DNA from: Rugalucina vietnamica
Taxonomy: Eukaryota > Mollusca > Bivalvia > Lucinida > Lucinidae
Direction of reading: 5' to 3'
Assembly: GCA_964017185.1 (NCBI GenBank)
Contig: OZ024882.1
Coordinates: 36,318,488 to 36,382,487 of the forward strand
DNA length: 64,000 nucleotides
Every line of letters begins with the position of its first letter. Within the stretch, counting starts at the first letter, position 1. Under the pieces are notes generated by a model. That model had not been told where the DNA came from. It worked only from the letters and a program-made list of their open reading frames with translations, and made no database searches. Shown here piece after piece: positions 8,642 through 64,000 of this stretch. The translations under genes and the position numbers were made by a program.

Positions 8642-8922
8642 CATCATGAAATCATGTCCGTGAAATGTACACCCCCTTTAATTCCACTTTTATATAGTAA
8701 AACCGGGGTATACCTGTTTTTCTCATTTTTTAATCCAAAACATAAATGGTAGGTACACGTTAGAACCGCATCAGCGAGGCGGTTCTAACGTGTACACACA
8801 ATCTACATTTTGAGAAAAAAATACTAAAATCATCGTTTTCTTTTTTCCCAATGTAATTTTCAATTTTTGCAGTTCAAAAAAAAAATCTCTGTATACTTCA
8901 TAGGCAAGCTTTCGTAATGAGA
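8642..8922. mobile_element. Palindromic MITE, family 1, copy 3
   Basis: Left end CATCATGAAATCATGTCCGT, right end GGCAAGCTTTCGTAATGAG. The core is nearly intact: GGTACACGTTAGAACCGC then GCGGTTCTAACGTGTACAC, a hairpin of about 17 bp. Confidence 0.78.
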
Positions 8923-9083
8923 TGATTTTTTTTACCTAATGACGACCTGTATTATGTGAGATTCAGTATTATATGCGAAAAACAAGGCACATATTATAAG
9001 CCACGCAGCAACCGTGTAGCTTAAGGTTTTGCTGTATAGATAGAATGATCACTCTACCTTTCAAATATAAAATTTCAAGCCTC

Positions 9084-33300: not shown

Positions 33301-33484
33301 GCCTCGTTTATGTTTTGGATAGAAAATAAGAAAACATTTAACCATTGCAAACCTCATGTTCACTATATTAAAGTGGGATTGAAGGGAGGATTTATTACTC
33401 AGACATATTTGCGTGAAGCTTACCTCGCTCAGGGTTTCCAGTAAAGCGCGGAGCCAGCCCCATCTCCTGGTTAACCGCCGTCAT
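30329..33484 (-). CDS. GH31 glycosidase, MYORG-like type II membrane protein, tandem copy A
   Basis: Two exons: 33484-33424 and 32487-30329. Exon 1 starts at ATG, encodes MTAVNQEMGLAPRFTGNPER and ends GAGCGAG|GTAAGC. Exon 2 follows a pyrimidine-rich tract and TTGCAG. The join keeps frame and gives 739 residues (human MYORG: 714). A basic segment (TRKKLK) precedes one hydrophobic anchor (about 38-59), so the catalytic domain faces the ER/Golgi lumen or outside; many N-glycosylation sequons agree. GH31 signatures: LEIDDNWTP, nucleophile Asp in FKFDAGEAGF (about residue 493), and general acid/base Asp in RIMDKYSQWDHNNGL (about 553). The spacing is near that of MYORG D463/D520, a reported alpha-galactosidase. 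Likely role: hydrolysis of alpha-linked sugars on glycoconjugates; the substrate is inferred. The ORF alone would begin at a non-ATG codon, which is why exon 1 is needed. Confidence 0.88.
32726..32767. repeat. (CCCCCA)n tract in GH31-A intron 1, G-quadruplex-prone on the minus strand
   Basis: Six or more CCCCCA units, so the transcribed-sense strand (minus) is (GGGGGT)n. Confidence 0.9.
33176..33416. mobile_element. Family 1 MITE, copy 5, at the 5' end of GH31-A intron 1
   Basis: CATTACGAAAACATGCCCAT at one end, CAGACATATTTGCGTGAA at the other, with ACATAGATTGTGGGTACACG inside. Copy B reads straight from GATTTACAGTG into CTTACCTC at this place, so the insertion is specific to copy A and starts within about 10 bases of the splice donor. 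Confidence 0.75.
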
Positions 33485-38945: not shown

Positions 38946-38995
38946 GAAAATGAATCTTAACCTAACATATTTTTTCTGATTTCTCAGAATACCTT

Positions 38996-39177
38996 TGTCA
39001 AGACGCAAAATGTTAAAACGACGAAAAATATTATAATAACATTTTAAAACATTCTCGACGCAAGATGTAAAACATGTAATTACAACATTTTAACATTTTG
39101 CTTTGTGACTGATCGACGCAAAATGTTAAAATGTTATTATATCATTTTGCGTCGTTTTAACATTTTGCGTGCTGTGA
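38996..39177. mobile_element. MITE with TGTCAAGACGCAAAATG ends
   Basis: About 180 bp from TTTGTCAAGACGCAAAATG to ACATTTTGCGTGCTGTGA, full of alternating CGCAAAATGTT / AACATTTTGCG words. The same termini bound the giant element at 44759-63855, so this is a small relative. Confidence 0.7.
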
Positions 39178-39532
39178 TTTCAAAGGACCAAAAGGAAAAT
39201 TATAAAGTTTACACGTGTGAAATCGCCCCTAGAGGAGATGTCGATGTATCAGAGTTCAACGGAAGTTTTGACAAACTATTGAAGCATTGGGAGCATCGAA
39301 TCTCGAACACTCATGGCTATTTCCTGGATAAGAACTATGTCCCAACAAGACGATACTACAGCAATGACGGTATCCATTCTGGGATTAAACGTTTCTTAGA
39401 TGCCATGGATACATCAGTGAAGATAGTTGTTGGCGACGAACTATGTGTGTTCTCCAACTCCAAGAAGCACAAAAAGAATAGTAACATGAACACAGTTGGC
39501 AGTTTACTGTTGTCTCTACTGCTGGTAGTTGG

Positions 39533-42800: not shown

Positions 42801-42954
42801 CTTAACTGTTGTCTCTCTGGCTTTTTGAAGAGCCACCGTGAATGTGCCTTGCTCCTTTGAGGGGCATGTGGCTCTACAGTGATTTACAGTGCTTACCTCT
42901 CTCAGGGTTTCCAGTAAAGCGTGTAGCCAGCCCCATCTCACTAACCTCCGTCAT
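39826..42954 (-). CDS. GH31 glycosidase, MYORG-like type II membrane protein, tandem copy B
   Basis: Two exons: 42954-42897 and 41984-39826, joined in frame to 738 residues. Exon 1 encodes MTEVSEMGLATRFTGNPER and ends GAGAGAG|GTAAGC. Exon 2 is preceded by TTGACTTGCAG. The protein is collinear with copy A and very similar across the whole length, with the same anchor segment (CTRKKLKSLLFVGVFLVVVV), nucleophile motif FKFDAGEAGF and acid/base motif RIMDKYSQWDHNNGL, so both copies look catalytically competent. Differences cluster in the stalk after the anchor (for example HIRPNRR versus HIRLNRR) and around the WPLSRN loop. The pair is a head-to-tail duplication on the minus strand that includes the promoter region. 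The donor end of exon 1 is repeated twice more downstream in the intron (see the separate entry). Confidence 0.88.
42487..42915 (-). repeat. 136-bp tandem repeat that triplicates the exon 1 splice donor of GH31-B
   Basis: GCTTACCTCTCTCAGGGTTT (complement of the exon end plus donor) occurs at 42619, 42755 and 42891, exactly 136 bases apart. Only the 42891 copy is attached to the complete exon 1; the other two have the last about 18 exon bases and an intact GTAAGC donor, then ACGCGGATTTTAAAAAGC. Confidence 0.88.
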
Positions 42955-44203: not shown

Positions 44204-44453
44204 CATCAGGAAAAGATGCCCAAGTAATGTATACCCCCTTAAACCCCACTTTTATATAGCAAAACTGGGGTATGCAGGGGTATATATATTTTTCTTATTT
44301 TTGCTCAAAAACATAGATTGTGGGTACTCGTGTACCCACAATCTATGTTTTGAGCAAAAATAAGAAAAATATCAAAATTTATCTACTGAAAACTTTCATT
44401 TTTTTACAACTCTAAAAATCTCTGTATATTGCACGGGCAAGTTTTCGTAATGA
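44204..44453. mobile_element. Palindromic MITE, family 1, copy 6 (most complete)
   Basis: CATCAGGAAAAGATGCCC at the left, GGGCAAGTTTTCGTAATG at the right. The core palindrome TTTTTGCTCAAAAACATAGA ... TCTATGTTTTGAGCAAAAA has arms of about 38 bp that meet at GGGTACTCGTGTACCC. Confidence 0.85.
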
Positions 44454-44758
44454 CATAATGAATCAGTAGAAAACCTAGGTGAATCGCCAATATATTTCAA
44501 AAGTTATGACCATTTACCTGACAGCGCACCCGGGCATGACCAGCGCACGTTGCATTTATTCTGATCCATTTTTGATGAGGAGTGGAAAATATTTGCTTTT
44601 ATTTGCTCCATAAAGTCATAAAGATAACAAAATCCACCATTTTCATGTTGCACAAGCCTTCTTAGTTTAACTAATGGTCGAATTTTCTGTTTAGGTATTA
44701 AGTAAAACGGTAGATTATAGATGTTATATGTGAAACTAGTTTTTCCTATTAAAAGTTT

Positions 44759-45477
44759 TGTCAAGACGCAAAATGTTAAAATGTTGTAATAACATTTTTA
44801 ACATTTTGCGTAGACCAGTCACAACGCAATATGTTCAAAATGTTAAAACTTCATCCTCGATCTTTGACTATAAATAAGACAAAGCTATACCCTCTCTGAA
44901 CCATTTCCTGGTTTTCTGATACCTGAGATATTAAAAATTTTAACTTTTTGGCATTCCGAGACCCTAATTCTACATATTAAAGCCATTTGTGCCTTATTTC
45001 AGCATTCACGCAGACTTTCAGGATTCAGGTGACAATGTACATAAACTCTGTTTTTACCTTCAAATACCCTCAAAAGACTTTTTGGATCGTTCTGCAATAC
45101 TATCTGACCATTCTCAGACTTCCTGAATAAGTTTAGGAGTTTTTAACATTTTTATAACATATTGCGTTGATCGCTGGCAACGCAAAATGTTAAAATGTTA
45201 AAACTTTTTTTTTTTGCCTAGCTGGATCTTTATGACTATCTGAATACCTGAGATGATACAATTTTAACTTTTTGACATTCTGAGACCCTAATTCTACCTT
45301 TTGGAGCCGTCTGTGACTTATTTTAGCATTCTCGCAGACTTTCAGAATTCCGGTGCCAATGTACAAAAACTCTGTTTTTACCTTTTAATACCCTCAAAAG
45401 ACCTTTTTGATCGATCTGCAATACTGTCTGACCATTCTCAGACTTCCAGAATAAGTTGAGGAGTTAAAATTCATTTC
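44759..45477. repeat. Left terminal inverted repeat of the giant element
   Basis: About 0.7 kb that includes two array units in reverse orientation (AACTCTGTTTTTACCTT, TCTCAGACTTCC). Its complement is 57560-58170 plus 63703-63855. Confidence 0.75.
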
Positions 45478-46132
45478 TACAACAGACTTTACGTACATTG
45501 GCATCGGAATCCTGAAAGTCTGCGAGAATGCTAAAAAGTCACAGGCAGCTCCAAAAGATAGACAGGTACAAGTAGATCATGATCAAGAAAATGCGCAATC
45601 AGAAAAAGCTTCCCACTTACAAAAACCAAAATGGAAAAACATGAACTAACAATCAGGTACTTGCAAGTTATGAATACATATCGTAAGCAGAGTGAGTAGG
45701 CATTTTCCAATATGTGGCCTCTCAGTTACCTAAAACTAACTAAAAGTATGAAAACGTACATAAGAATAGGGGTCTCAGAATAGCAAAAAGCGAAAACATT
45801 TCCCAGGGTATCCTGAAAGAAATGTTTTATCATTTTTAACATTGCGTTTCCAGCGATCAACGCAAAATGTTATAAAAATGTTAAAAACTCTAAAACTTCT
45901 TCTTTGGAAGTCTGAGAATGGTCAAAAAGTGTTGAAAATGGATCCTAAACGTATTTGGGGGATATCAAAAGGTGAAAACAAAGTTTACGTACATTCGCAC
46001 TGGAATCCTAGAAGTCTGCGAGAATGCTAGAATAAGTTGCACACAGGTCCAAAAGGTAGAATTAGAGTCTCACAATGCCAAAAAGAGGTTATATTTAATA
46101 AACTATCCTGATAGTAATTAAGATCAAGCCAG

Positions 46133-46169
<37 letters not shown>

Positions 46170-47832
46170 TTTAACATTCAGCGTCGCCAGCGATCAACGC
46201 AAAATGTAATTTAATGTTAAAAACTAAAGTTTCTGGAAGTCTAAGAATGGTCAGAAAGTGTTGCAGATCGGTCCAAAAGGTATTTAAAGATAAGTTACAG
46301 ACAGTCAAAAGTTAGAATAACGGTCTATGAATGCCAAAAAGGTGAAACTTCATTTTCTCAGGTATCCTGAATCATAAAGATCAACCAAGGCGAAAACAAA
46401 AGTTTTAACGCAAAATGTTGTTAAAATGTTAAAACTCAGAATGGTCAGAAAGTATTGCAAATCGATCCAAAAGGTCTTTTGAGGATATTAAAAGGTAAAA
46501 CAGAGTTTTTGTACATTGGCACCGGAATCCTGAAAGTCTGCGAGAATGCTGAAATAAGAAGTCACAGACGTCTCAAAATGTAGAACTTGGGTCTCGGAAT
46601 GCCAAAAAGTTGAAATTTTATTATCTGAGGTATCCTGATAGTCATAAATTTAGATCCAGCTAGGCGAAAAAATGTTTTTACATTTTTTACATTTTGCGTT
46701 GCCAGAGATCAACGCAAAATGTTATAAAAATGTTAAAAACTCCTAAATTTATTCTGGAAGTCTGAGAATGATCAGAAAGCGTTAAAGATCGATTCAAAAA
46801 TACTTATGAGAATATCAAGAGGTGTAAACATGGTTTACGTACACATCTGATAGTCATGAATTTAGATAAAGCTAGGCGAAATAAATGTTTTCATATTTTA
46901 ACATTTTGCGTTGCCAGCGATCAACGCAAAATGTTATAAAAATGTTAAAAACTCATCAATTTATTCTGGAAGTCTGAGAATGATCAGAATGCGTTACAGG
47001 TCGATTCAAAAATACTTTTGAGAATATCCATAGGTGTAAACGTGGTTTACGTACACTGGGAGCGAAATCCTGAAAGTCTGCGAGAGTACTAAAATACGTC
47101 ACAGACGGCTCCTAAAGGTAGAATTAGGGTATCAGAATGCCAAAAACTTAAAATTTTATTATCTCAGGTATCCAGATAGTCATAAAGATCCAGCTAGGCA
47201 AAAAAAAAAGTTTTAACATTTTGCGTTGCCAGCGATCAACGCAAAATGTTATAAAAATGTTAAAAACTAAACTTATTCTGGAAGTCTGAGAATGGTCAGA
47301 AAGTATTGCATATCGATCCAAAAGGTATTTTGATGGTATTAAAAGGTAAAAACAGAGATTTTGTACATTGGCACCGGAATTCTGAAAGTCTGCGAGAATG
47401 CTAAAATAAGTCAAATGCAGCTCCAAAAGGTAGAATTAGGGTCTCAGAATGTCACAAAGTTAAAAAAAAATATTTTTCATGTATCCTGATAGTCATAAAG
47501 ATCCAGCTAGGCAAACAAAATGTTTTAACATTTTAACATTTTGCGTTGCCAGCTATCAACGCAAAATGTTATAAAAATATAAAAAACTTCTAAACTTATT
47601 TTGGAAGTCTGAGAATGGTCAGAAAGTATTGCAGATCGATCCAAAAGGTCTTTTGAGGGTATTTGAAGGTAAAAACAGAGTTTTTGTACATTGGCACCGG
47701 AATTCTGAAAGTCTGCGAGAATGCTAAAATAAGTCACAGACGGCTCCAAAAGGTAGAATTAGGGTATCAGAATGCCAAAAAGTTAAAATTTTATCATCTC
47801 AGGTATCCAGATAGTCATAAAGATCCAGCTAG

Positions 47833-47885
<53 letters not shown>

Positions 47886-48918
47886 TAACATTTTAATATT
47901 TTGCGTTGCCAGCGATCAACGCAAAATTTAATAAAAATTTTAAAAACTCCTAAACTTATTCTGGAAGTATGAGAATGGTAAGAAAGTATTGCAGATCGAT
48001 CCAAAAGGTCTTTTGAGGGTATTAAAAGGTAAAAACAGAGTTTTTGTACATTGGCACCGGAATTCTGAAAGTCTGCGAGAATGCTAAAATAATTCACAGA
48101 CGGCTGCAAAAGGTAGCATTTTTCCAAATGCCAAAAAGTTAAAATTTTATCATCTCAGGTATCCAGATAGTCATAAAGATCCAGCTAGGCAAAAAAAATA
48201 AAATAAATAAAAAATAAGTTTTAACATTTTAACATATTGCGTTGCTAGCGATCAACGCTAAATGTTATAAAATGTTAAAAACTCCTAAACTTATTCTGGA
48301 AGTCTGCGAATGGTCAGAAAGTATTGTAAATCGATCCAAAAGGTCTTTTGGGGGTATTAGAAGGTAAAAACAGAGTTTTTGTACATTGGCACCGGAATTC
48401 TGAAAGTCTGCGAGAATGCTAAAATAAGTCACAGACGGCTCCAAAAGGTAGAATTAGGGTCTCAGAATGTCAAAAAGTTAAAATTGTATCATCTCATGTA
48501 TCCAGATAGTCATAAAGATCCAGCTAGGCAAAAAAAATGTTTTAACATTTTAACATTTTGCGTTGCCAGCTATCAACGCAAAATGTTATCAAAGTGTTAA
48601 AAAACTCCGTAACTTATTCTGGAAGTCTGCGAATGGTCAGAAAGTATTGCAAATCGATCCGAAAGGTCTTTTGGGGGTATTAAAAGGTAAACACAGAGTT
48701 TTTGTACATTGGCACCGGAATTCTGAAAGTCTGCGAGAATGCTAAAATAAGTCATAGACGGCTCCAAAAGGTAGAATTAGGGTCTCAGAATGTCAAAAAG
48801 TTAAAATTTTATCATCTCAGGTATCCAGATAGTCATAAAGATCCAGCTAGGCAAAAAAAAAATAAGTTTTAACATTTTAACATTTTGCGTTGCCAGCGAT
48901 CAACGCAAAATTTAATAA
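45478..48918. repeat. Tandem array of about 325-bp units (left block, about ten units)
   Basis: The junction word CGTTGCCAGCGATCAACGC recurs near 45850, 46185, 46701, 46913, 47228, 47548, 47908, 48244, 48566 and 48892. The last six are spaced 320-360; the spread is due mainly to poly(A) length. Each unit runs from CGCAAAATGTT through GAAAGTCTGCGAGAATGCTA and GATCCAGCTAGGCAAAA to AACATTTTGCG, so each unit looks like a small inverted-repeat element. Confidence 0.9.
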
Positions 48919-48934
48919 AAAATTTAAGGAAGAG

Positions 48935-49125
48935 TCTATTTACAGTCAACTGTCACTAGCCAAAAAACGTTAAAATGGCTATTACCAGTCAACTGTCACT
49001 AGCCAAAAAACGTTAAAATGGCTATTACCAGTCAACTGTCACTAGCCAAAAAACGTTAAAATGGCTATTACCAGTCAACTGTCACTAGCCAAAAAAACGT
49101 TAAAATGGCTATTTACAGTCAGACT
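48935..49125. repeat. 43-bp tandem repeats at the left end of the nested transposon
   Basis: Four units of the type GTCAACTGTCACTAGCC / AAAAAACGTTAAAATGGCTA, almost identical. The inverted counterpart is at 56745-56880 (three units). Confidence 0.93.
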
Positions 49126-50693
49126 TGAAATTTTATTTTTGCTTGAAAAGTGTTCTTTTGGCTCTTATCTTCTTTCACCATTAAAATAATGTGACAAATT
49201 AATTCAGCTTCCAATGACGGAACCCAGTCCTCGTGGATTTCGGCTAAACTCAAGTCAGATGACGGACTGGCTGAAATTCGAATTAATGTTTTATCATTTG
49301 AATAATTACAATTGCTAACCACGGTTAACAGCTGATCTCATGCCCGGGTGTTCTGCTATACCAACCACAGTGTTCCTGTATAAACCGTTCGGAGATTACC
49401 AACAATTAGATCACGAATTGGCAGCAACTCGTATTGCAAAGCAGGAGAGAAAGAATGACTTGAGATATTGAGAGTATACATGTACATGACTAAATCTTAA
49501 CGCAGAAATCAGCAGTTCGTTCCTTGAGTAAATGTACACGTATCTAGGACAATGCGAAGCGTCAGTTCCCAGTCAATGCTACTAATATATGAACAAGCAT
49601 GCCTGGTTTGTGTTGGTTATATTCAAGCACGAACGTGCGGATAGTGCCTTCATTGCTGACATTTTTCGTAACTGGACGCTTACTTGTAGCATTTATAATG
49701 TGTCTCCTTACCAGGACGACTTCGTATAATTTAGAAATAAGAAGGGAATATCTCTGAACCATTTTAAGAGTAGCATGTTCGTGTAACACGGAAGTCAGTG
49801 TATTACGTAAACACCACAAAACTACGGTGATAATCAACTTCCAAAGAAAACGGAATACGTAAAATACGATTTTCAAATATTTTGCCTGTATCCTTAGACT
49901 TCAATGCACTGCCTAGCTTGTTGTTAGTACTATTACCATGTGTTTTAAGACAGACCCTACTAGAATTTGTTTACTGTGAAAACTCATGTCTTCCCTCTTT
50001 CTAAGTGCAAACATTTCAATATTCCAGAGTTATGATTTTTGTGTTCTGTGCATTGTCGCGGATGTAAATAATGCTATAAAGTTTCAACACGAAACTTTGA
50101 TTGGTTTCCAAGTTCCATTTTAAAGGGCCATAACTAAAAATACGCAATCCAGAGTTATGGTTCTTGTGTTCTGCACGTCGTCTTATGTTGGTTAATAATC
50201 CTGTGAAGTTTCATTACTTGAGATACCTAAAGAGGAATGACATAAAAATGAAATCTTGGCACGTATGCCAGTTCTCAAATGTAATACTCAACAAAATCAG
50301 GACTGAATTTTTAAGTTTTTCATAAAAACTCTTTCTTTTTTTTCTTTTATCCGCATTTGTTCAAATACGTAGCAGCTCTAGGGGATTGACAACATTTTCA
50401 ACAACGATACATACGAGAGATAACCCTTATAAATCGTGAAATTTGTAAGTACTGTAACGATGGTGTCCGATCAAACTTGAGTTTTGAAAGACAAACAACA
50501 CTGATTTAATTTCACAAGCTTAGATAATGCAATGAATATCAAAAATGCAGTTAAAAGAAAGAAAACTAGTGAAGCCGATTTGATAATCATGTTAGAATAG
50601 AAAATGTAATTACTTGCCCAAAAAGTTGCCTGCCTTGTGCCCACGGATGTAATTATTCATTATTTTTGCATTTCTAATCGCTGTTTACATGTA

Positions 50694-50747
<54 letters not shown>

Positions 50748-51060
50748 CTTTAGTAAGAAAATTAACTTCTTTATTTTTAACTTCCTCAAATACATATACG
50801 AGTGGCTCTATAACAACAAAAACATTTGAGTTCAAGACACACACAAAAAAAAAACACAACTAAAATGCAATGTTAAAAACAAAATAAAAACAATCAACCA
50901 AAGTGTCATTTTGACCTTCCGCATGAATTCACTGGTAAATTAATTTGTAATGTGACGCGTGTTGATCATTAATCGATTACCACACTCGATAGCTGATTTT
51001 GTGAACGTGTGTAGTTGCGAAAAGGCGTGAACGTAATAATTTTTCAAACTTTTTCAACAC
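49126..51060. other. Interior of the nested transposon, no gene; poly(A) 50695-50744
   Basis: At 50001-50250 two related stretches (CCAGAGTTATGATTTTTGTG and CCAGAGTTATGGTTCTTGTG, with AAAGGGCCATAACTA between) form a repeat known widely in bivalve non-coding DNA. A 104-codon minus frame at 49562-49876 has no recognisable domain. Confidence 0.45.
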
Positions 51061-51066
51061 TGACAC

Positions 51067-51180
51067 AGGGGTAAACAAGGGGAACCGCTCTCCCCGGTGC
51101 TGTTCATATGTTTCATAAATGATATCATTCATAACACCAACGATGATTATGGCGAACCATTGACTATCAATGAAATTAAT
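51067..51180 (+). pseudogene. Reverse transcriptase fragment (non-LTR)
   Basis: An open stretch reads KQGEPLSPVLFICFINDI, the conserved RT block that follows the VRQG motif. Only about 40 codons remain, between low-complexity sequence on both sides. Confidence 0.7.
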
Positions 51181-51405
51181 ATGTCTACAGCTGTATACTC
51201 ATGTATGCATACATGTATGATGCTGAAAGAAAGAAAGAAAGAAAGAAAGAAAAAGTAAGAAAGAAAGATGAATTAATGAATGAATACGATTGTTTCCGAT
51301 TGCTTGAAACATACAAACATGTAGCGCTTTCTTTTCAAATGAATGAATGAAGTGGGAAGTTCTTTTCTTCTTAATTCTACGTTTTTCTTTTTTTTTTTCG
51401 GAAAC

Positions 51406-51807
51406 ACATATAAGATTGCCATAGACTTTAATTTCTAAGAAAAAAAGGTAGCTGTTCATTGCAATCGTTTATGGCCCCTAAGGTAGTCGCTTATCGCAAT
51501 TAGGTAGCTGTTTAGTGTAATCAGTTACATGAAAGAAACACTTTTATTTTGTGGTCTACAGTAGTCGCCTATGGTAAATGTATGAAGCAGAGACGTCAAC
51601 GCACCTCCAGATATTTTAATTGAATTAACTAATGTTACTTTATGTTAGGACAATATTAGCTAAATAACATTGGTGTCATACTTGTACACGCGTGCCATTC
51701 AATGGCTACCGAGAAAATTTACACCTACAGATCAAAGGTGCTCTGCCTTCGTGCTATCAAAACATTTGGTAATAACATAGGTGTCATCTTTTCATAGGTG
51801 AAGCAAT
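51406..51807 (+). repeat. 402-bp direct repeat, first copy
   Basis: Begins ACATATAAGATTGCCATAGA and ends AGGTGAAGCAAT. It is about 95% identical to 52964-53365, 1558 bases further on. The two could be long terminal repeats of a gutted element, but TG...CA ends and a primer-binding site are not seen. Confidence 0.85.
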
Positions 51808-52963
51808 TTTTTTTGTTTGTTATTCTTTGAATAATTTTGAACTATTGTTTGAAAAAAAGTGTTGTGTTTAAGCTACTTTACGGTCCTTTACAACAGCACA
51901 ATGAAATAGTGCGCCATTTTTATTCTGATAAGCAAACTGCTAACAAAAATAAATTTACTCTTTATGCGTCCGAATGCTAAGTTAAGGACGCGATTACGTG
52001 AACCCCAGTGTTTATTATAAATTCTTTATAATTGTTACAACACACCCCACCCCCCTTAACATGGATATGTAGTTTTCAAATTAAAATTCTAGTGGATGGA
52101 AAGTTTCGACTTTCATGTACACCACATTGCGACATCAAGCATTTTATCGCATTTTTAAAACTTCACGAATGAAATGCTTTTTAAAGAACAAAAATACCCT
52201 AAATACAACATTTTGCAATATTTATGAAATCTGGGTTGTTTTAGAAAATAAACAAAGCAGTTGAGCGTAGAAAATATTTATTTCATAATAAATCACTTGG
52301 ACCAAATCATAATGCAACAATAAATCATCCTCTGATCTCTACAGTCAAGGACATATTTCGCAATTTGCTGTCAACGATGCATTTTATTATTCTAATGTAG
52401 ACCTTGAGGGTTCAGTACCCGAAATTTCGCAATATAGCCCATAATGCTTGGATCAAACGTTTATATTGTATTCATTCGTTTGTGTACCCGACAACATTGT
52501 TGTTTCGGAAGCGACATTACAATGATGTTTTCAGTATGAAAACAGGTACAATTTTACGAAATCGAATAAAGAACCCTAACAGTTTTTGTCTTGTCTGATT
52601 GAATTGGTGCGTAATAACGTTCAGGTCAACAATGATTTAGTCATATTGAGACATTTGATACTTTACATGTACTTTACGACTACATCTATCTGAAAAGGTC
52701 AAATATAAGACTTGCGAAATCAGGGTTTGTTCAAAGCTGGTTTTTCTGGGTACCAGGATACGCAAAGAATCAAGAAGCTAGTCATCTTCACGTTATCAAT
52801 GCAAAAGTACTTCACCAAGCAACCGTAACGAGAAATTCCCCCATATAGTAAACGTGCTATTTTGAATAAATCCTATTCGCCCGAACGATTTTGTGTATAA
52901 CTGAATCCGGTCATAAATGTCTGTAATCTGCTGCTGGGTAATTCAACATGGCTAACTATAGCT

Positions 52964-53365
52964 ACATATAAGATTGCCATAGACTTTAATTTCCAAGAAA
53001 AAAGGTAGCTGTTCATTGCAATCGTTTTTGGCCCCTAAGGTAGTCGCTTATCGCAATTAGGTAGCTGTTTAGTGCAATCAGTTACATGTAAGAAACACTT
53101 TTATTTTATGGTCTACAGTAGTCGCCTATGGTAAAGGTATGAAGCAGAGACATCCATGCACCTCCAGATATTTTTAATTGAATTAACTAATATTATTTTA
53201 TGTTAGGACAATATTACCTTAATAACATTGGTGTCATACATGTACACGCGTGCCATTCAATGGCTACCTTGAAAATTTACACATACAGATCAAAGGTGCT
53301 CTGCCTTCGTGCTATCAAAACATTTGGTAATAATATAGGTGTCATCTTTTCATTGGTGAAGCAAT
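52964..53365 (+). repeat. 402-bp direct repeat, second copy
   Basis: Collinear with 51406-51807. It is followed by GAATAAACTTTCTGTATTC, resembling a retroelement 3' end. Confidence 0.85.
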
Positions 53366-53422
53366 ATACGACGATGGGCTATTATGCCTAAGTCTGAATA
53401 AACTTTCTGTATTCTGTATCAA

Positions 53423-53640
53423 GGATAAGATAATTTTATTTCAAAATTTCATAAGGCTGACAAGCCCATGAGATATAATACTTACATAGATATTTGATGG
53501 CATACAGTACAGATACATGCAACTAAATTATATATTCAATCGACAACTTGTAACAATGCAACATATAAATGTACGTAGTATATTGCATTTAGGTATAATT
53601 AGTAGGGTTTCAGTAGCAATTTATCTCATGGGCTACTTAG
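53423..53640 (-). mobile_element. LINE 3' end remnant
   Basis: On the minus strand it ends AAATAAAATTATCTTATCC, the same kind of terminus as at 17903-17970. Confidence 0.4.
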
Positions 53641-53664
53641 TTAGGTTTCTTTTATTTCGTTAAT

Positions 53665-53846
53665 AGCATGCGCGGATCCAGAGGGGGGACCGGGGGTCCG
53701 GACCCCCCCTGGAATTTGAAAATTTTACCTAAAAAAAGGTAATTTCGGGATTTTGGGGGGGGGGGTTGGACCCCCCCTCGTCTGTGACCAAAAATTACCA
53801 TTTTCGTTGGACCCCCTCTCATGAAAATTTCTGGATCCGCGCATGA
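53665..53846. mobile_element. MITE with perfect CATGCGCGGATCCAGA ends
   Basis: CATGCGCGGATCCAGA at the left and its exact complement at the right enclose G-rich then C-rich blocks (GGGGGTCCGGACCCCCC). The interior is itself largely palindromic. Ends of this type are common in marine invertebrate genomes. Confidence 0.88.
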
Positions 53847-53899
53847 ATAGAATGTACAGTAATAACGAAGTACATGAGAAGTTGATTGGGCTGACACCT

Positions 53900-55790
53900 T
53901 TTGTATAATGAGAGTCATTTAAGAAAACAAAAACACGTGTTCACACCGCCGTTAAGAAAACAAATAAGCATGTTCGCACAATCGAAGATAAACTTGATAA
54001 TTATGTCAATTTTTTCGGTATGGCCAGAAACTTTTACATGGAGTGAGAACACACTGCTTATGGATTCACGGAGATTGTCGAAAGTTATGATTACTTATCA
54101 GCGAATGCAAAGACATTAGTAAGACCAGACTGCGCGATAGCATATTAAACTCTGTACACAAGTGCACATGTATGAATTGCAAGATCCATACCAAAACACA
54201 ACATTCTGAATACTTCTTATGTATTACAAACCATAATACCTGATCACGAAAATCAGCACATCAGCAAATGCGTTTCAAGTTTCTATGTGGTATGATCGCG
54301 CACACTGCATTATAAATGTTTGTTATGAAATAAAATAAATGAATGCTCTAAAATAATTATTGTAAGAAATATGCATCATCCGATAGCAGTTTTCATAATG
54401 CTTCTAATGATTTGTAGCAATGCCCCATTTTTTCAACAGTATGCATATGTTCTACCGAGAAAGGAGCCACACTAACGATGGTAACAGAATGCTTAGAGTA
54501 CATGTATAAAAGTCTGAAATATTTTATGCCGAACAAAAGAGCAATGGTGGGATGATATAGCATCTTTAATTGTTAGGTATGAATTATCACGGTACATGTA
54601 GGTGTAGATTGGCACGTGCACATATACTGTCCTATGACAACTTTGTTATTTACATTCTGTTGTGTCTATATCATCGTAATCGTGATAGTCATTCTTTTTT
54701 ATTTAATGTGTAGTTAATATTTTGTATCAACATTATGTATGCAAAACAAAGTTTAAAATTGACAACGAGCAACAAATCAGCAGTTCAGTATTTCAGCGTT
54801 TTAGTATATTTCTGCTGATCAGTCAGTTGCTGAATTCAGCAGAAAATTCAGCGTTTTAGTCTGTCCCGACTTCAAGTGGTTAAGTACACCTGATATGCGT
54901 TCAGTCAGTCAGTCAGTCAGTTCCAGCTGTTCATGGACCAAATAAAACTCGAATACATTTAATGTTTTATACGCGGCATGCGTACCTGATTTTAAATCTT
55001 TAAAATACATACAGTGTATTTAGTCAAATTCTATAATTCTTGGCGGTTTATCAAAGATTGGCGCACACGAATACACCTCAAAGATAAGTTGTCATAACAA
55101 TGCCTCAAGGTGTGAAAAGAGAAGCTCAACCACGCGTACTGTAAAAACATTTTATGGGTATTCTTGTGTTTTATGACACCTGAGCCGCACCAAAAGAAAA
55201 TATATTTAACTTTTTTTAATCAAAACAAAAGTGCATTTTATACAGCTTTTAGCCCACGCTCCTGTTTTGTTATTTATTTATCACAATGCATTGTCTGTGT
55301 CTGTTAATCCTGATTCTCAAACCGCCATACATTACTGTGTCTGTCCTGTCCGGCTTCAGAGCTAATCAGAAATCCCGAAGGCCTTTTTATCATGACGCGG
55401 CTCTACAGTTTCATGACGTGATCGCATATAGATGTGTCATTGAATCAGTAAAGGACACACAAAAAGACGTTCGATACACCATGTTGCTTCAAATAATAAC
55501 ATAATTGGCATGTTAACCGCTCTGGTCCGATCCTGCCCAGGAAAAGTGGTTAATGTCAAACCATCCATATGTATAAAACTTTTGTGGCTTAGTTAGATGG
55601 TTATGTTTCAAGCACTTGTTGTTTGTCATCAACATGTTGGGTAAAACGTCCCGACATTATCTTAGCTGTTGACAGGGACTTTAAGCATCAATTAATACAA
55701 AACCTTCATCTTAGCAGACTGCCAACTTAGTGCACATTAGACCACCGATCTTGGACCAGGGGAAGAGGAAAAATGAATATACATTGTAAA
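53900..55790. other. Nested transposon interior, no gene; (CAGT)n at 54900-54921
   Basis: No domain-bearing frame. A partial family 2 MITE (GCCTTTTTATCATGACGCGGCTC) ends near 55404. Short GTCA and TCAGCAG-type repeats lie at 54770-54921. Confidence 0.4.
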
Positions 55791-55819
55791 TATGTTCATA
55801 AACAAGTTTGCGCAATGCG

Positions 55820-56337
55820 CATGGTTGTCGAGCGCGATCTCGGATTCGATGTCGAATCGGACACACTGCCTGCCGTCTAGACATGTTTTCAATTTGGCAA
55901 CACACATGCAAGCACACGCGCGCACATGTTATGACTTTTTTACAGAAAGTTTGATGCGGTACTCATAAACGTTTCCAGCTAGTTCGCATGTTTTTTCTCA
56001 GTCTACAATTGCAAAATTCTTATGCACATGTATATAAACATGTACAATTAGTTTGAACTATAAATGAAAAATGTGCGGACATGGTTGTCGAGCGCGATCT
56101 CGGATTCGATGTCGAATCGGACACACTGCCTGCCGTCTAGACATTTTTTCAATTTGGCAACACACATGCAAGCACACGCGCGCACATTTTATGACTTTTT
56201 TACAGAAAGTTTGATGCGGTACCCATAAACGTTGCCAGCAAGTTCGCATGTTTTTTCTCAGTCTACGATTGCAAAATTCTTATGCATATGTATATAAACA
56301 TGTACAATTAGTTTGAACTATAAATGAAAAAAAATAC
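55820..56337. repeat. 260-bp tandem duplication
   Basis: CATGGTTGTCGAGCGCGATC begins at 55820 and 56080. The two units stay nearly identical to AACTATAAATGAAAA. Confidence 0.92.
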
Positions 56338-56744
56338 ACTGTTGCTCTTTCTTTCAAACTAAACTATGCAATAATCTTTATAATTTGATCAAGTTTTTAG
56401 TTAAAAAAACTCACTTAAAATTGTAGCTGGCAAGTCATTTTTTCAGCAGTTTGGGGATGAAGAAAAATAATTCAACGCCTCATTATGAAAGTCAATGTTG
56501 CTTGGTCCTAAACACGCGACCAACGAAACAAGAGCAACGTAAATATCATAACTAATATATATAAAAATTGTATTGCATTGCCAGGCAATGCATTCCTGGC
56601 AATGCATTCCCAATAAGTTCATATAATAAAATAAAATATTAAAAATACAAATACAGCTTAGATCTAATGTTCAAAACATGGTTTCAGTCCCAAGTTTGTC
56701 AGAAACATGTTACCACATACTAAGTAAATAATTATTTTTGAATT

Positions 56745-56880
56745 TGACTGTAAATAGCCATTTTAACGTTTTTTGGCTAGTGACAGTTGACTGGTAATAG
56801 CCATTTTAACGTTTTTTGGCTAGTGACAGTTGACTGGTAATAGCCATTTTAACGTTTTTTGGCTACTGGGTAATAGCCAC
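56745..56880. repeat. 43-bp tandem repeats at the right end of the nested transposon
   Basis: Three units, complementary to those at 48935-49125: ATTTTAACGTTTTTTGGCTA then GTGACAGTTGACTGG. Confidence 0.93.
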
Positions 56881-56893
56881 TCCGAAAATTTAA

Positions 56894-58163
56894 ATACTCC
56901 TAAACTTATTCTGGAAGTATGAGAATGGTAAGAAAGTATTGCAGATCGATCCAAAAGGTCTTTTGAGGGTATTGAAAGGTAAAAACAGAGTTTTTGTACA
57001 TTGGCACCGGAATTCTGAAAGTCTGCGAGAATGCTAAAATAAGTCACAGACGGCTCCAAAAGGTAGCATTTTTCAGAATGCCAAAAAGTTAAAATTTTAT
57101 CATCTCAGGTATCCAGATAGTCACAAAGATCCAGCAAGGCAAAAAAAAAAAAAAAAATAAAATAAAATAAATAAATAAAAAAATAAGTTTCAACATTTTA
57201 ACATATTGCGTTGCCAGCGATCAACGCAAAATGTTATAAAATGTTAAAAACTCCTAAACTTATTCTGGAAGTCTGCGAATGGTCAGAAAGTATTGCAAAT
57301 CGATCCAAAAGGTCTTTTGGGGGTATTAAAAGGTAAAAACAGAGTTTTTGTACATTGGCACCGGAATTCTGAAAGTCTGCGAGAATGCTAAAATAAGTCA
57401 CAGACGGCTCCAAAATGTAGAATTAGGGTCTCAGAATGTCAAAAAGTTAAAATTGTATCATCTCATGTATCCAGATAGTCATAAAGATCCAGCTAGGCAA
57501 AAAAAAAATGTTTTAACATTTTAACATTTTGCGTTGCCAGCGATCAACGCAAAATGTTATAAAAGTGTTAAAAAACTCCGTAACTTATTCTGGAAGTCTG
57601 CGGATGGTCAGAAAGTATTGCAAATCGATCCGAAAGGTCTTTTGGGGGTATTAAAAGGTAAAAACAGAGTTTTTGTACATTGGCACCGGAATTCTGAAAG
57701 TCTGCGAGAATGCTAAAATAAGTCATAGACGGCTCCAAAAGGTAGAATTAGGGTCTCAGAATGTCAAAAAGTTAAAATTTTATCATCTCAGGTATCCAGA
57801 TAGTCATAAAGATCCAGCTAGGCAAAAAAAAAAGTTTTAACATTTTTACATTTTGCGTTGCCAGCGATCAACGCAAAATGTTATAAAAATGTTAAAAAAA
57901 ACTCCTAAACTTATTCAGGAAGTCTGAGAATGGTCAGATAGTATTGCAGAACGATCCAAAATGTCTTTTGAGGGTATTTGAAGGTAAAAACAGAGTTTAT
58001 ATACATTGGCACCTGAATCCTGAAAGTCTGCGTGAATGCTGAAGTAAGGCACAAACGGATTTAAAAGGTAGAATTAGGGTCTCGGAATGCCAAAAAGTTA
58101 AATTTTTTATTATTTCAGGTATCAGAAAACCAGGAAATGGTTCAGAGAGGGTATAGCTTTGTC
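56894..58163. repeat. Tandem array of about 325-bp units (right block)
   Basis: Junction words at 57213, 57537 and 57860 (spacing 324 and 323). The first unit completes the one cut at 48918. The last part is the inverted counterpart of the left terminus. Confidence 0.9.
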
Positions 58164-58170
58164 TTATTTA

Positions 58171-59495
58171 TTTTAGGATGGGCTTGTTCTGTATCAACGC
58201 AACACCAAATAAAATATAACTATTCTTTTATTTAATGCTCTTAGTATATCTGGCATAAATAAGGGTTAAAAGCAAATTGATAATTGTTTCTGGATGGAAC
58301 TGATTGGCCGCAGAGCAGAAATGAAGTCTGCTTGGTTATACCAAGTCGGACTTGCATTGAAATTTTAGCTCCCCAGAAGTTGTTCAAGCACTGAAACTTC
58401 TTGGGGGCTAAAATTTATTTAGAATTTCCGCCTACTAAACAATGAAGAGTTATAACAAAACCATGAAAGCTGTTTTTCCGCTCTGCGACAAGTCAACTCA
58501 GTGGTAAAAGTTTTCTTGTGAAATACTCCTTAGTGATCATATTCATTCACTTCAAATAGATGTACTCCTTAAAATGAAACTGTCATTGTCCATTTTAGGC
58601 TCATTGATAATTATTCCATTTTATATAATAATTGGCCAGAAAATATTTTTCTGGTTATTGTCCATGGCCTTTGTCCTATGCATATTTAGTTTGTAATCGG
58701 TTTTGTCCGATTTTGTCCTGTCTTTTCAAGGTTTAAAATAAGTTGTTTGAGCATGGTAAAATCCTCCACTTAGCATGGTAAAATCCTCTGGCAAGTCAGC
58801 TTCATCTAGCACTCACCCACTGACCCTTCATCTGAAAGTACATATCTAAAAACAGTATCTGGAATTCCAGTATGAAAATGATGATGTTAACTCGCCTAGG
58901 GTTTATAACTGGCCGTTCTAAGGTGGTAGTACTGTTGTGGCATATTTATTTCTCTTTTCAATGCGTGTTTCATCGATGTTAACGTATTAAGTCATTTTGT
59001 CCTGTTATATTCAGCTCGGATAGTGCATCTGGGTGGACACCATCTGGGAAAGAGCTGCTCCTGGGTGTTGAAGATATGCTTGAAATGTCTATATATCAAC
59101 TTTATTTCACCTTTTGGTGTCGCAAACATGTTTGTGCTTGTTCCTGGTCATTGTTTATTGTTATTGTAATAAGGGAGTGGTGGGTGGGTTTTGCTTCTGA
59201 GAACTGGATCTCCACAGAACAGGAGGGTCACATGGTATATTGATGACATCAGAGGACCAGCATGACATCACACCTGATCATGTGATTTGCACTGTCAGTC
59301 ATGTGACTTAGATCATGTGTCCTCAAAGATGTATTATTGATTGACAGTCAGGAAAACACTTAATTGAATTGATTATCATTTCTTAAACCAATAGAATGAA
59401 ATGATGTGGAGGTACTTACGAAAAGCTGAAAACAAGAACAGAAGCAAGCCCGACCAAAATAAATACAAAATACTGCTTAAGGCAGTATTTATTCT
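58171..59495. mobile_element. Inverted-repeat element, short copy (1.3 kb)
   Basis: Begins TATTTTAGGATGGGCTTGTT and ends near AGCAAGCCCGACCAAAATAA, which is the inverted form with a few changes. The first 263 bp are repeated at 59496-59758 and the last about 309 bp at 63402-63710, so both ends match the longer element that follows. The interior lacks a coding frame. Confidence 0.75.
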
Positions 59496-62400
59496 TATTT
59501 TAGGATGGGCTTGTTCTGTATCAACGCAACACCAAATAAAATATAACTATTCTTTTATTTAATGCTCTTAGTATATCTGGCATAAATAAGGGTTAAAAGC
59601 AAATTGATAATTGTTTCTGGATGGAACTGATTGGCCGTAGAGCAGAAATGAAGTCTGCTTGGTTATACCAAGTCGGACTTGCATTGAAATTTTAGCTCCC
59701 CAGAAGTTGTTCAAGCACTGAAACTTCTTGGGGGCTAAAATTTATTTAGAATTTCCGCCACGAAAATATTTAAGAAAATATTTTCCCCCAAATTCTAAAT
59801 TATTTTTATTTTATCTAAGGAAAATGTGGCTTCTTCTCATGTGGGTAATACCTTTTTAAAGATTCATTTTAGTGTTAAGTTAGTAATTAACCATTAAATA
59901 AATACTGTAAAGGTAATTAAACTCTGCGGCCATTAACAAAAAGTTTTTCCCCCACGTGAAACTGGAATATGTAATTAGTATTACAGCCATTTCGGAAAAT
60001 CTTTTGGTCATTTACAGGGTTTATTATGAGACTATAGTTCATAATAACACTTATTCTTGCACAAACTTTATCACTTTGAAAAAGATGGATACATATTTGA
60101 ATAATAGCTAAAATTTCAAGGCATTCCAAGGCTTTATTTCGCTGTGCTTATAAATCTTTGTATATGTAAATGAGCAGTCAAATGTGTGTGTGTGTGTTTT
60201 TTTAAAAACTGTTAAACTTTACTTCACCTTTGTTAAGGGTATGACAACTAGGGCCTGAGAGTGCCTTGCTGTTCTTGGATTTAGGACACTCCTGTTGCAT
60301 CATCATTCTGGTAGGAAGTGGCCTTCTCTATGCAGTCCCCACTTCTGTATGTCTGGGACTCTCCAGGAAAATAGAATAGCTGAAACTCAATATACTGGAT
60401 ATTAATTGTGGTGTTAATCAAGGTGTATTATTTGTTATTTTTGAAAATTTTCCCACTTTGGGTTATAGACTGGTTTAATATTTGGTTCTGCTTGCGCTTG
60501 ATCTGGTATCATGCTTGTACATTTGCTTTCATTTCGGGCAAGGCCTCTATTCTAATTATGGCTATTCCTTTAAATTTGTTTGCCATAAATGATTTATGGA
60601 CAAGGCTAGCTAGAGGTTTGTTCACAACCCACGGTTAAATAAATGTTGTGAGCCACTGACAAGTCCAAGGTCATAGTTCTGTTGTTGTTGATTGTGCCAG
60701 GACAACTTTAATAGATAATAAGAGCTGTTCTTTGATAATTCATATTTACTTTTATCTATCTTGGTTTTGCATCAGGGGTTAATTTTGAGTGTTACCTTCA
60801 AGCCAATTAATAGAAAGTATTGATCGGTACAACACACTTGTAAACTTCGCTTAAGTATTTTCAAAATTGAAAATATTAACATTCAGTTTAAAGTAAAACA
60901 GATGTATGCCGCAATCTATTCTAATGCGACCTTATGATTCAAATGTGCCCATATAAAACCAAAAGGTTTAGGGATTTGACTGGGTGCAAGGCTGATCGAT
61001 TAAAAGAAGACTGCGAGGTCCAAACCATGTCTGTCTTTATGTGGGGAATCCCAGCCCCCCACGAGGCCGGCAAATATTTTTTCTTTAATGAGCTGTCACA
61101 GTGTGTAATGAGTTCCAAGACATATTTTGCAACTTCACCTCGTGCTTTGCAAAACTTACTTTTGCTATCACTTATTGATATGCAACACTTGTCCATTTCA
61201 TGTATAACTATCTCCCTCAGGCTGAGGCACCAAGGTGGCAATGACATAGATGTCGGTCTTTCTCACTCCCTGCAAGATTTTACTTGCTACTTTTTAACCA
61301 TTTCACATTAAACCGACGGCCAAAGCACCTCGCCTCCGAATGCAAATATATCTGTGACCTTTTCTACTTTTCTATTTGTCTGTAAGCAACCATTCAAACG
61401 GGCGAATTTACTATTCCAGACTTCCATGCTGTTATTAAGTAAAGTTATGCCGGGCTCATGGGGAGCTGGATTTCTTTACTGCTCCCATCGTTGGGAATTG
61501 ATGAGCCACAATGCGGAAAGGAATTGACTACCATTTCATGTGAGAAATAACAGCGCTCCGTAATAGAAGCCATCCAGGTTTTATTTATAGCCACAATTTT
61601 TCCCAACATTTTTCATTCACATATACATAGGCAGAGGCACCAAAGTTGCATCCACTAGAAGAGGATATGGGTGCATCTCAAAAAACCTGGCAATACTTAG
61701 ACAAACTCATGCAGAGCGGTCTTGTAAATTTGTAAATGGGATTTGACTGGCCGCAAGGCAGAAAGAATAATTTAAGACTGCATGGTTGATTCCAGTGTCA
61801 GTCTTATGTGAGAAATCTGCATGGTTGATACCATGTAAGTTTTATGTGAGAAATCCCAGACCCCCATGAAGCCTGCAAGTATTTTATCCCTAAATCAAAT
61901 GCGTAATACTTAGTATTTCCAGTCATCTTATGCAACCTTTGCATCATTTAATTTTCAACATTTGCAATCACTTGGACTAGGCGATCTTTGCATAATTTCA
62001 TGTAAAACTTTTCACTCACTTCATACTCAGACAGAGGCCCAAGGTGGCATCGACTGGGGTCTGTATCTCACTCACAACTCATCAACCTTTAAATATTTCA
62101 CATTAAACAGTACCCTTTGGCCAATGCCCCTCGCCTCAAACCGGCAATCTTTGTGACTCTTTGAAATTTCTATTTATCTTAAAGCAACAATTTAGATTGA
62201 TTAAATTTACTATTGCAGACATACATGCATTAAACTTATGCAGGCTTCAAGGTGAGCTGGAATATCTTTAGAATTTTGTCTAAATATGTTCCACCTTGCG
62301 ACAAATCATATGGTGCCAAATACATCCCTTTAATGATAGTTTCTGTGACCTCGCTGTGACTGAATGATAGATATTTTACTGACCAGTTTTGGTGCGTGTC

Positions 62401-63709
62401 AAAACAAACTGATTTAGGAAGATGTCACTTGAAGTTCTGGGTTCGATCCTGATTAAAACTATGCCAAATGCTGATTGACACTACTCTTGGCTAATAAATG
62501 TTCGAAGTTCTGGGTTGGTCCCAATTAAAGAGATGCCAAATGCTGATTGACACTACTCTTGGCTAATAAATATCATTTGAAGTTCTGGGTTCGGTCCCAA
62601 TTTTAAAAATAATTGACAGTACTCTGGGCTAATAAATCATGTCATTAGAATTTCTGGGTACGGTCCTGATTAGAGATGACAAATGCTGATAAAGTGATCA
62701 ACTGATCGACACTTGTCTTGCAGACTTGAAATGGACAAATAAAATTATAAATGTCACTTGAAGTTCTGGGTTCGGTCCCGACTAAACAGACGCCAAATGC
62801 TGATTGTCACTACTCTTCTTGGCTAATAAATGTCATTTGAAGCTCTGGGTTCGGTTCCGGTGGACACCATCTGGGAAAGAGCATTATAGAGGTGCCAAAT
62901 GCTGATTGACGGTACGCTTGGCTAATAAATGTCACCCTAAGTCCTGGGTCCGGTCCCGATTAAAGATGCTGATTGACAATACTCTTGGCTCAGTTCTGAC
63001 ATAGATGCTAGAAAAATTGTTGCAAAAGTGGTGAGTTAAAGGGGGCATGACTGTTTGGGAGTGGGTGGGGTTGCACTTAACCCTTGGCCATTTGAACTCT
63101 TATTTTGACATGCTATCTCAAAATCTGCACAAGTTTGAGGACATTCTACTTACCATATCCCTACCTACTCAACCTTTTACCTAACCTAGACACTTTTTTA
63201 TTTTTTCATCTTGGCTTCAAAACTGCTTGCCTCCTCCCACATGGCTTCTGTTTGGCAAGGCCCCAAAAGCTGAATCAGCACTGTCATCTGTCAATTCTTC
63301 TGTAGTTTTCTTCTCTGAGACTAGCTGCAGTTTATTCTTTGAATTTGTCCTTTGCAATAGATCTGATGCCTGAGATTTTCAAAGATTTATGCAGCTCAAT
63401 TTTTTGCTTCTGAGAACTGGATCTCCACAGAACAGGAGGGTCACATGGTGTATTGATGACATCAGAGGACCAGCATGACATCACACCTGATCATGTGATT
63501 TGCACTGTCAGTCATGTGACTTAGATCATGTGTCCTCAAAGATGTATTATTGATTGACAGTCAGGAAAACACTTAATTGAATTGATTATCATTTCTTAAA
63601 CCAATAGAATGAAATGATGTGGAGGTACTTACGAAAAGCTGAAAACAAGAACAGAAGCAAGCCCGACCAAAATAAATACAAAATACTGCTTAAGGCAGTA
63701 TTTATTCTT
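59496..63709. mobile_element. Inverted-repeat element, long copy (4.2 kb), head-to-tail with the short one
   Basis: Same termini as the 1.3-kb copy, sharing only a TTCTTATTTT junction with it. Internal matches include GGTGGACACCATCTGGGAAA (59034 and 62860). Within it, about 60930-61510 and about 61740-62290 are a diverged duplication (CCTCGCCTC, AATTTACTATT and GAGCTGGA words in order). No transposase recognised. Confidence 0.7.
62405..62995. repeat. Minisatellite of about 75-110-bp units
   Basis: GAAGTTCTGGGTTCGGTCC-like words recur near 62433, 62506, 62580, 62649, 62759, 62839 and 62938, each followed by ATGCCAAATGCTGATTGACA and CTTGGCTAATAAAT with variation. The GGTTCGGTCCC core resembles a tRNA B box. 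Confidence 0.85.
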
Positions 63710-63855
63710 ATAGTCAAAGATCGAGGATGAAGTTTTAACATTTTTAACATATTGCGTTGTGACTGATCTACGCAAAATGTTAAAAATGTTATTACAACAT
63801 TTTTAACATATTGCGTTGTGACTATTATAACATTTTAACATTTTGTGTTGTGACA
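63703..63855. repeat. Right terminal inverted repeat of the giant element (outer part)
   Basis: TAGTCAAAGATCGAGGATGA through to TTGTGTTGTGACA mirrors 44759-44875, with one extra CGCAATATGTT unit on this side. Confidence 0.8.
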
Positions 63856-64000
63856 AAGCTTGAATAAAAATGATACTGACAGTAAATATATATTAAAACT
63901 ACTTCTATGTCAGATTTTGCATAAAAAGAGTCATTACTTTACTGTGACATCATGGTTTAAGGCATTTGTAACATTGATGATTTCTATCTCATAAGTATAT

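Follow-up and report, generated by a model that had tools for sequence, protein, structure and literature searches.

A foldback-type transposon family with satellite-like arms and a 6-bp GC-centred target site duplication in the bivalve Rugalucina vietnamica

A 64,000-nucleotide stretch of the genome of the lucinid bivalve Rugalucina vietnamica (assembly GCA_964017185.1, contig OZ024882.1, positions 36,318,488 to 36,382,487 of the forward strand; hereafter the window) contains a 19,097-bp element at 44759-63855 that belongs to a transposon family scattered through the genome and is not a local oddity. The element is very probably a non-autonomous foldback DNA transposon that depends on a transposase supplied in trans, inserts with a 6-bp NNGCNN duplication, and carries as its arms arrays of ~325-bp units that gain and lose members. 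The family is apparently new; its 6-bp GC-centred target site duplication (TSD) is unusual and its arms are very long. A first-pass annotation had placed mirrored ends at 44759 and 63855, and the element indeed starts and stops at exactly these positions; it begins with TGTCAAGACGCA and ends with the reverse complement TGTCACAACACA, giving termini of the form TGTCA..TGACA. The flanks, AAGTTT and AAGCTT, agree at five of six bases and are read as a decayed 6-bp TSD. Two nested insertions make up 13.5 kb of this copy, and without them it measures 5,600 bp, as the annotation had estimated (about 5.6 kb).

We searched the 1.09 Gb genome, assembled in chromosome-sized contigs, with the first 142 bp of the element and scored the best 40 of 425 candidates, many of which lie in facing pairs. 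The terminal word, with up to two mismatches allowed, has 67 genome matches compared with none for the reversed pattern, two of the 67 being 113 bp apart within one reiterated end (C4:24.3). Altogether 23 copies share both ends, settling the doubt raised at first pass as to whether bounded copies occur elsewhere: 17 form a first set that includes the window copy, and six further pairs came from the whole-genome pattern search (both flanks of C6:19.0 and one flank of three others were known before, and two pairs are wholly new). These copies span 1,251 to 27,782 bp (n=23), and since they were located through window-like ends the sample favours well-kept ones. Exact 6-bp TSDs flank 19 of the 23 copies (14/17 in the first set and 5/6 of the further pairs), and when right flanks were shuffled among the first 17 copies a mean of 1.1 and a maximum of 6 exact duplications resulted, compared with the 14 observed. 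These 17 copies have no exact match at 3-5 or 7-12 bp and two at 2 bp. Positions 3-4 of the left TSD copy are GC in 20/23 copies (15/17 and 5/6), the first base is mostly A (13/17) and the last mostly T (11/17); the family thus prefers target sites with GC in the middle, NNGCNN. The ends are polar in 19/23 copies (16/17 and 3/6), one carrying TGTCAAGAC and the opposite one TGTCACAAC, an AAG-type and ACA-type pair. Three copies (C1:90.9, C6:26.1 and C7:57.9) have AAG-type ends on both sides, with lower scores against the unit consensus for many of their units.

The unit arrays are themselves the inverted repeats, forming two foldback arms of unequal length with one block of units each. A single minus-to-plus switch of unit orientation is present in 23 of 24 loci (19/20 and 4/4), three of the 20 (E25, E26 and E27) being seen only in part; in 14 of the 20, orders as simple as this (two runs or fewer) arise in <2% of shuffles, and the remaining six, with few units or a single arm, are not informative one by one. 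The blocks of a pair comprise, for example, 1/2, 9/4, 21/7 or 28/18 matched stretches. Within a single element, collinear inverted alignment extends furthest in E22 (3.7 kb at 92% identity), whose left arm of ~8.5 kb has no gap >120 bp between unit matches. Long inverted repeats with internal tandem repeats are the hallmark of foldback elements, and they are present here. The exact 44-bp unit boundary occurs 170 times in the genome, and the 100 boundaries listed form 23 clusters, none with more than 12 exact boundaries; the 15 clusters with both orientations run minus-then-plus in 15/15 cases. Each of the 23 lies, by eye, beside at least one terminus, and therefore no free satellite array is seen within the 100 listed boundaries.

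Units and termini are related. The terminus is built of ~58-bp palindromic modules, and the unit boundary aligns to the junction between terminal modules with a score of 71, compared with a maximum of 25 in 300 shuffles. Each unit boundary is thus a degenerate copy of the terminus, or terminal dyad, which explains why the first-pass annotation read the same words in the units and the outer termini. Among 182 full units aligned, mean identity is 94.1% within an arm, 93.6% between the arms of one element and 93.1% between elements. For 80 of the 182 the closest unit belongs to the same element, compared with 14.6 by shuffling, and for 102 to another one, and a unit tree has 93 changes of element label compared with 137 when shuffled; these data agree best with arrays that are inherited along with the element and amplified locally to some extent. 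A divergent subtype occupies the outermost position in each arm, with a mean identity of 89.6% vs 93-96% further in.

Three copies on different contigs, E25 (C2), E26 (C5) and E18 (C1), carry a common 5.3-kb insert at the orientation switch, with junctions identical to the base. We take this insert to be a passenger, and not the element's own gene region, because its first 0.5 kb corresponds to a dispersed repeat of very high abundance (40 of 4602 candidates scored). Exact TSDs flank E18 (AGGCCT) and E25 (ATGCTG), whose targets are unrelated, and as both are complete and contain the one nested insertion, the arms and the passenger moved together. Eight of the 11 E25 units have their best E18 match on one collinear chain (1-1, 4-2, 5-3, 6-4, 7-5, 8-6, 9-7, 11-10); of the remaining three, unit 10 falls out of order, and units 2 and 3 are closest to the E18 counterparts of units 5 and 6, a pattern expected from a duplication within E25. 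Most simply, an element already equipped with arms and passenger transposed, and its arms then gained or lost units; gain and loss of units in the arms is supported by these comparisons. The shared insertion means that mobility persisted in a copy with several units per arm and a 5.3-kb passenger; that copy would have been roughly 12 kb long if its arms were then those of E18 today, less the other 2.1-kb insert of E18. Further shared sequence, 82-96% alike and internally repetitive, lies next to units but at differing unit positions (~3129-4700 in L009, the E09 locus; ~2192-4313 in L018, the E18 locus; ~2033-3510 in L067; 0.23 kb in L028), and is either a further passenger or a second repeat inside elements of this family.

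TSDs together with inverted ends are the mark of a DDE-type transposase, as in terminal inverted repeat (TIR) transposons, and we therefore infer that the family moves by such an enzyme acting in trans. The transposase would recognise the TGTCA termini, mobilise the whole element with its arms, centre and any passenger insertion, and join it to a 6-bp staggered cut, preferably at NNGCNN. The ~325-bp unit array of each arm probably derives from duplication of the subterminal region, with unequal exchange or slippage then adding and removing units to give copies of 1.25 to 27.8 kb. The unit boundaries may serve as secondary transposase-binding sites, by analogy with Galileo, for whose tandem repeats this role has been argued (PMC3573991, PMC4079207). 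The combination of TG..CA ends and 6-bp TSDs suggests an enzyme of integrase type, resembling IS3EU or GingerRoot, over one of Mutator or P type, an assignment to which we give a little less than an even chance. A fuller and more speculative scenario, which we offer tentatively, is a foldback family driven by such an enzyme, in which satellite-length arms with tens of terminus-like boundaries act as platforms for transposase loading, lengthening and shortening as the multi-kilobase structure goes on jumping with its passengers; if true, this would be the first foldback family with an integrase-type transposase.

That no coding source of mobility can be seen, as the first-pass annotation had remarked, is borne out by six-frame searches: there is no Pfam match, to a THAP/P-type transposase or otherwise, in the two window insertions or the centre of the window copy (E up to 0.1) or in the shared core, although the copies may all be non-autonomous, so that little is excluded. 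The 5.3-kb core of E18, E25 and E26 has no frame >109 aa, and six frames of its E25 copy give no Pfam match. The transposase-bearing relative that the annotation hoped to find elsewhere in the genome did not come to light, and several candidate partners were rejected. An SGNH-like frame (by eye; window 39192-39530) beside an isolated terminus fragment is part of ORF1, the first open reading frame of a non-LTR (long terminal repeat) retrotransposon; it has no Pfam match above the cut-off, no PDB match and 128 genome matches, and two full loci place the SGNH-like stretch in the C-terminal part of a frame that closes with a CCHC-like motif and has an endonuclease-like frame after it (by eye). Many of the 128 matches lie in open frames of 500-845 aa, and the window carries this ORF1 in interrupted form at 37873-38268 and 39187-39530. 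A 915-aa frame in E28 is a reverse transcriptase by Pfam, and open frames in E20, E22 and E15 are retrotransposon-like, by eye only. Behind four unit-less ends (L051-L054) the inner sequence shows no transposase by eye, and L053 holds pieces resembling LTR retrotransposons. A genome scan with the PF13683 integrase profile, no IS3EU profile being used, gave 139 matches among the best 150 of 1874 candidates scored, mostly long frames; these were set aside as mostly LTR-retrotransposon-like, with a 384-aa group that is Polinton-like by eye. At two Polinton-like loci on two contigs the integrase (by eye; L055:808-1959 and L056:823-1974) has further frames downstream, and the loci are 98.7% identical over 2.7 kb.

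Several observations weigh against the foldback interpretation or against parts of it. No transposase was found in the copies, leads and scans examined, which leaves movement in trans as an inference and any assignment to a superfamily tentative. Four of the 23 copies lack an exact TSD (the window copy and C1:90.9 agree at 5/6 bases, E12 and E11 at 4/6), and because pairs were found through window-like ends, decayed ends are unsampled. E31 carries plus units only, with no minus-arm units. E11 (L011, C13:16446100-16451300) has ACA-type sequence at both ends and an inverted-repeat flank of ~20 bp, and is for these reasons probably a recombinant, as if between two copies. The units of E26 (L026) show no clear order relative to E25 or E18, its insert is reversed with respect to the single end that can be read (ACA; this end is AAG in E25, and E25 and E18 agree), and its opposite end was not found in 5 kb more sequence; recombination between two foldback arms, inverting the centre, would explain the orientation of the insert. 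The suggestion of an integrase-type enzyme has to contend with the usual TA..TA ends of IS3EU, compared with TGTCA..TGACA here, and with the 4-5 bp TSDs of Ginger1/2, which also belong to the integrase-like group (PMC10045372).

The first-pass annotation took the array for a miniature inverted-repeat transposable element (MITE) that amplified inside its own inverted repeats, an idea that the analysis does not support, as the units themselves form the inverted repeats. In the related explanation of a true MITE array, the 325-bp unit would itself be mobile and inserted or amplified head to tail, the outer inverted repeat being incidental. Each unit is bounded by the inverted words CGCAAAATGTT and AACATTTTGCG and the boundaries form a dyad, as such an array would have, but unit orientation is fixed per arm with the single switch described above, a linker within the boundaries is homologous to the module junction of the terminus, the listed clusters all adjoin a terminus and are small, and no solitary unit with its own TSD was met in a search that was not exhaustive; we regard this explanation as very improbable. 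Even less credible is an origin of the inverted arrays by segmental duplication, recombination or misassembly instead of transposition. Repetitive arms of varying length invite misassembly and unequal exchange, nearest unit relatives lie within the same element more often than by shuffling, and the inverted-repeat flanks of E11 and the insert orientation of E26 point to recombination; exact 6-bp TSDs with a target preference at 19/23 copies and one nested insertion common to three contigs speak for transposition instead.

Two alternatives concern the kind of foldback element. A Mutator-like element (MULE) foldback similar to Tetris and Tm1 would account for arms with internal tandem repeats and for asymmetric short terminal motifs (PMC3169594, PMC4079207), and most foldbacks seem to be members of Mutator (PMC4079207), but the TSDs of Tetris and Tm1 are 8-10 bp, whereas here 19/23 copies have exactly 6 bp and 0/17 match at 7-12 bp, making this assignment unlikely. 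Descent as a non-autonomous derivative of a Polinton/Maverick element, with its retroviral-type integrase, would agree with the 6-bp TSD common to both (PMC10045372) and with the 384-aa integrase-like genes of this genome. No TGTCA..CGCAA terminus is present in the 3.4-3.5 kb read at each of the two Polinton-like loci, the ends of those elements themselves lying outside what was read. Polinton termini moreover begin with AG, and we consider such a derivation similarly improbable.

Among described elements, the closest are Tetris, Galileo and Tm1. Tetris of Drosophila virilis (PMC4079207) is a foldback without coding capacity whose autonomous partner was not found, its long inverted repeats hold tandem repeats in variable number (~220 bp, compared with ~325 bp here) that share a stretch with the outer domain as the units here do, and two of its allelic copies differ by one unit. 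It differs in its TSD (8-10 bp, not 6 bp GC-centred), in inverted repeats of up to 1.7 kb compared with the ~8.5 kb arm of E22, in having three structurally complete copies compared with 23 with both ends here, and in that its units also form separate satellite arrays, none of which appear among the unit boundaries listed here; larger arrays may, as suggested in the same paper, disrupt transposition. Galileo, of the P superfamily in Drosophila (PMC3573991), likewise has inverted repeats whose length varies through inner tandem repeats, with arms that differ in unit number, and its tandem repeats have been proposed as secondary transposase-binding sites, the idea borrowed here. Its TSD is 7 bp, whereas 0/17 copies here are exact at 7 bp, and neither its limit of ~1.26 kb for the inverted repeats nor its known transposase has a counterpart here. 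Tm1 of Meloidogyne, Mutator/Foldback by the title of PMC3169594, shares foldback inverted repeats with internal redundancy, arms ~93% identical within one element, and a short motif that differs between ends (A1/A2), like the AAG and ACA ends here, but has 8-10 bp TSDs (mostly 9), no target preference and a ~14-bp motif in place of a 6-bp GC-centred TSD and 325-bp units.

A 6-bp TSD is reported for IS3EU, GingerRoot and Polinton (PMC10045372), hAT6 (PMC12730594) and Dada (PMC3706591). IS3EU and GingerRoot (PMC10045372, PMC12730594) share it with the present family, and GingerRoot termini are occasionally TG..CA; the inverted repeats of IS3EU in fungal families are given only as >30 bp, and the likeness is a mechanistic lead, not membership. 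Dada, which targets RNA genes, was rejected as a relative because it has no inverted repeats (PMC3706591). Going by titles and the openings of abstracts, no foldback with a 6-bp TSD is among the papers that our search terms retrieved from the open PMC literature, and a 6-bp duplication centred on GC points towards a transposase class that the papers on Galileo, Tetris and Tm1 (PMC3573991, PMC4079207 and PMC3169594) do not name for foldbacks. In bivalves, Helentron-borne repeats (PMC7492417) and the oyster satellitome (PMC8268682) also provide satellite-like arrays dispersed by a mobile element, but there the carriers are Helentrons, whereas here a TIR-type element flanked by TSDs has the arrays as its two inverted arms. 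The link between a DNA transposon and a satellite-like array that the first-pass annotation saw in one locus is genuine, extends to a family of bounded copies with TSDs, and has a precedent in Tetris. Satellite arrays born inside transposons have often been inferred from remnants; copies of 1.25-27.8 kb with readable ends, TSDs and unit-by-unit arms in one assembly make array growth in a moving element directly measurable.

The window copy (Table 1) is old, with arms ~5% diverged, a left arm of two units, and two nested insertions that came later. Its outer right end (63708-63822) matches 44760-44873 in inverted orientation at 95% identity and is ~33 bp longer outside the match, and 57574-58171 matches 44870-45465, also inverted and at 95%, beyond a 5.5-kb insertion in the right arm. 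The ~0.7-kb mirrored ends of the first-pass annotation therefore exist as a match, although their length reflects only the two-unit left arm, the right arm being the whole plus-oriented array. Whole or partial ~325-bp units occupy 45842-48878 and 56885-58123, all plus-oriented, and 44918-45465 holds two minus-oriented ones; the innermost stretches of the right arm inner part are the most diverged, at 79-89% to the unit consensus compared with 87-97% for the outer ones.

Both insertions could be resolved, so that the insertion history is readable as had been proposed. The first looks like a second, different foldback-like element because inverted arms of a 43-bp tandem repeat form its ends; duplicated stretches also occur inside it, one of 260 bp in tandem (55820-56331) and one of 402 bp as a direct repeat (51406-51807 and 52964-53365, 95%). 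The second, of 5,540 bp (58172-63711), is a head-to-tail pair of one element with no clear TSD, for which the left arm provides the empty form of the site; at a guess, it is perhaps a Helitron/Helentron-like tandem element.

Table 1. Parts of the window copy, its nested insertions and an isolated terminus fragment
Feature	Position in window	Strand	Remarks
Isolated diverged terminus fragment of the same kind	38991..39180	+	No partner end seen; sits in gap of broken non-LTR retrotransposon ORF1
Left TSD copy, AAGTTT	44753..44758	.	5/6 bases as in right copy
Left terminus, TGTCAAGACGC and palindromic ~58-bp terminal modules	44759..44869	+	95% to inverted 63708-63822
Left arm, two minus units	44870..45465	-	Outermost (44918-45190) is divergent outer subtype
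Centre, switch of unit orientation	45466..45815	.	Plus unit fragment 45481-45562 and piece resembling inverted 14534-14719
Right arm, inner part	45816..48918	+	11 matched stretches (whole or partial units)
Insertion 1, left TSD, 9 bp, AAAATTTAA	48919..48927	.	
Insertion 1, 7,957 bp	48928..56884	.	Inverted arms of 43-bp tandem repeats (48936-49121; 56744-56868)
Insertion 1, right TSD, 9 bp, AAAATTTAA	56885..56893	.	
Right arm, outer part	56885..58171	+	Four units (outermost is divergent outer subtype) and subterminal sequence
Insertion 2a, 1,327 bp	58172..59498	+	Shortened tandem copy of 2b; same ends (261 bp, 310 bp at 99.6-99.7%)
Insertion 2b, 4,213 bp	59499..63711	+	Longer tandem copy; hairpin (by eye) ~8 bp from right end
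Right terminus, terminal modules ending, reverse complement, TGTCACAACAC	63712..63855	-	
Right TSD copy, AAGCTT	63856..63861	.	Pairs with left AAGTTT

Outside the element, a ~250-bp dispersed repeat at 44204-44459 stops ~300 bp short of the left TSD and has relatives, 71-90% alike, at 4057-4183, 5239-5480, 8641-8926, 20964-21119, 21924-22013 and 33173-33416, and a 136-bp tandem repeat occupies 42500-42915 (3.1 copies, 96%). Rfam gives no match in the window. Two 721-aa open frames on the minus strand, at 30329-32494 and 39826-41991, are both assigned to glycosyl hydrolase family 31 by Pfam; they are alike by eye, start 9.5 kb apart and represent a duplicated gene. The gene content of the window also includes a sodium-solute symporter.

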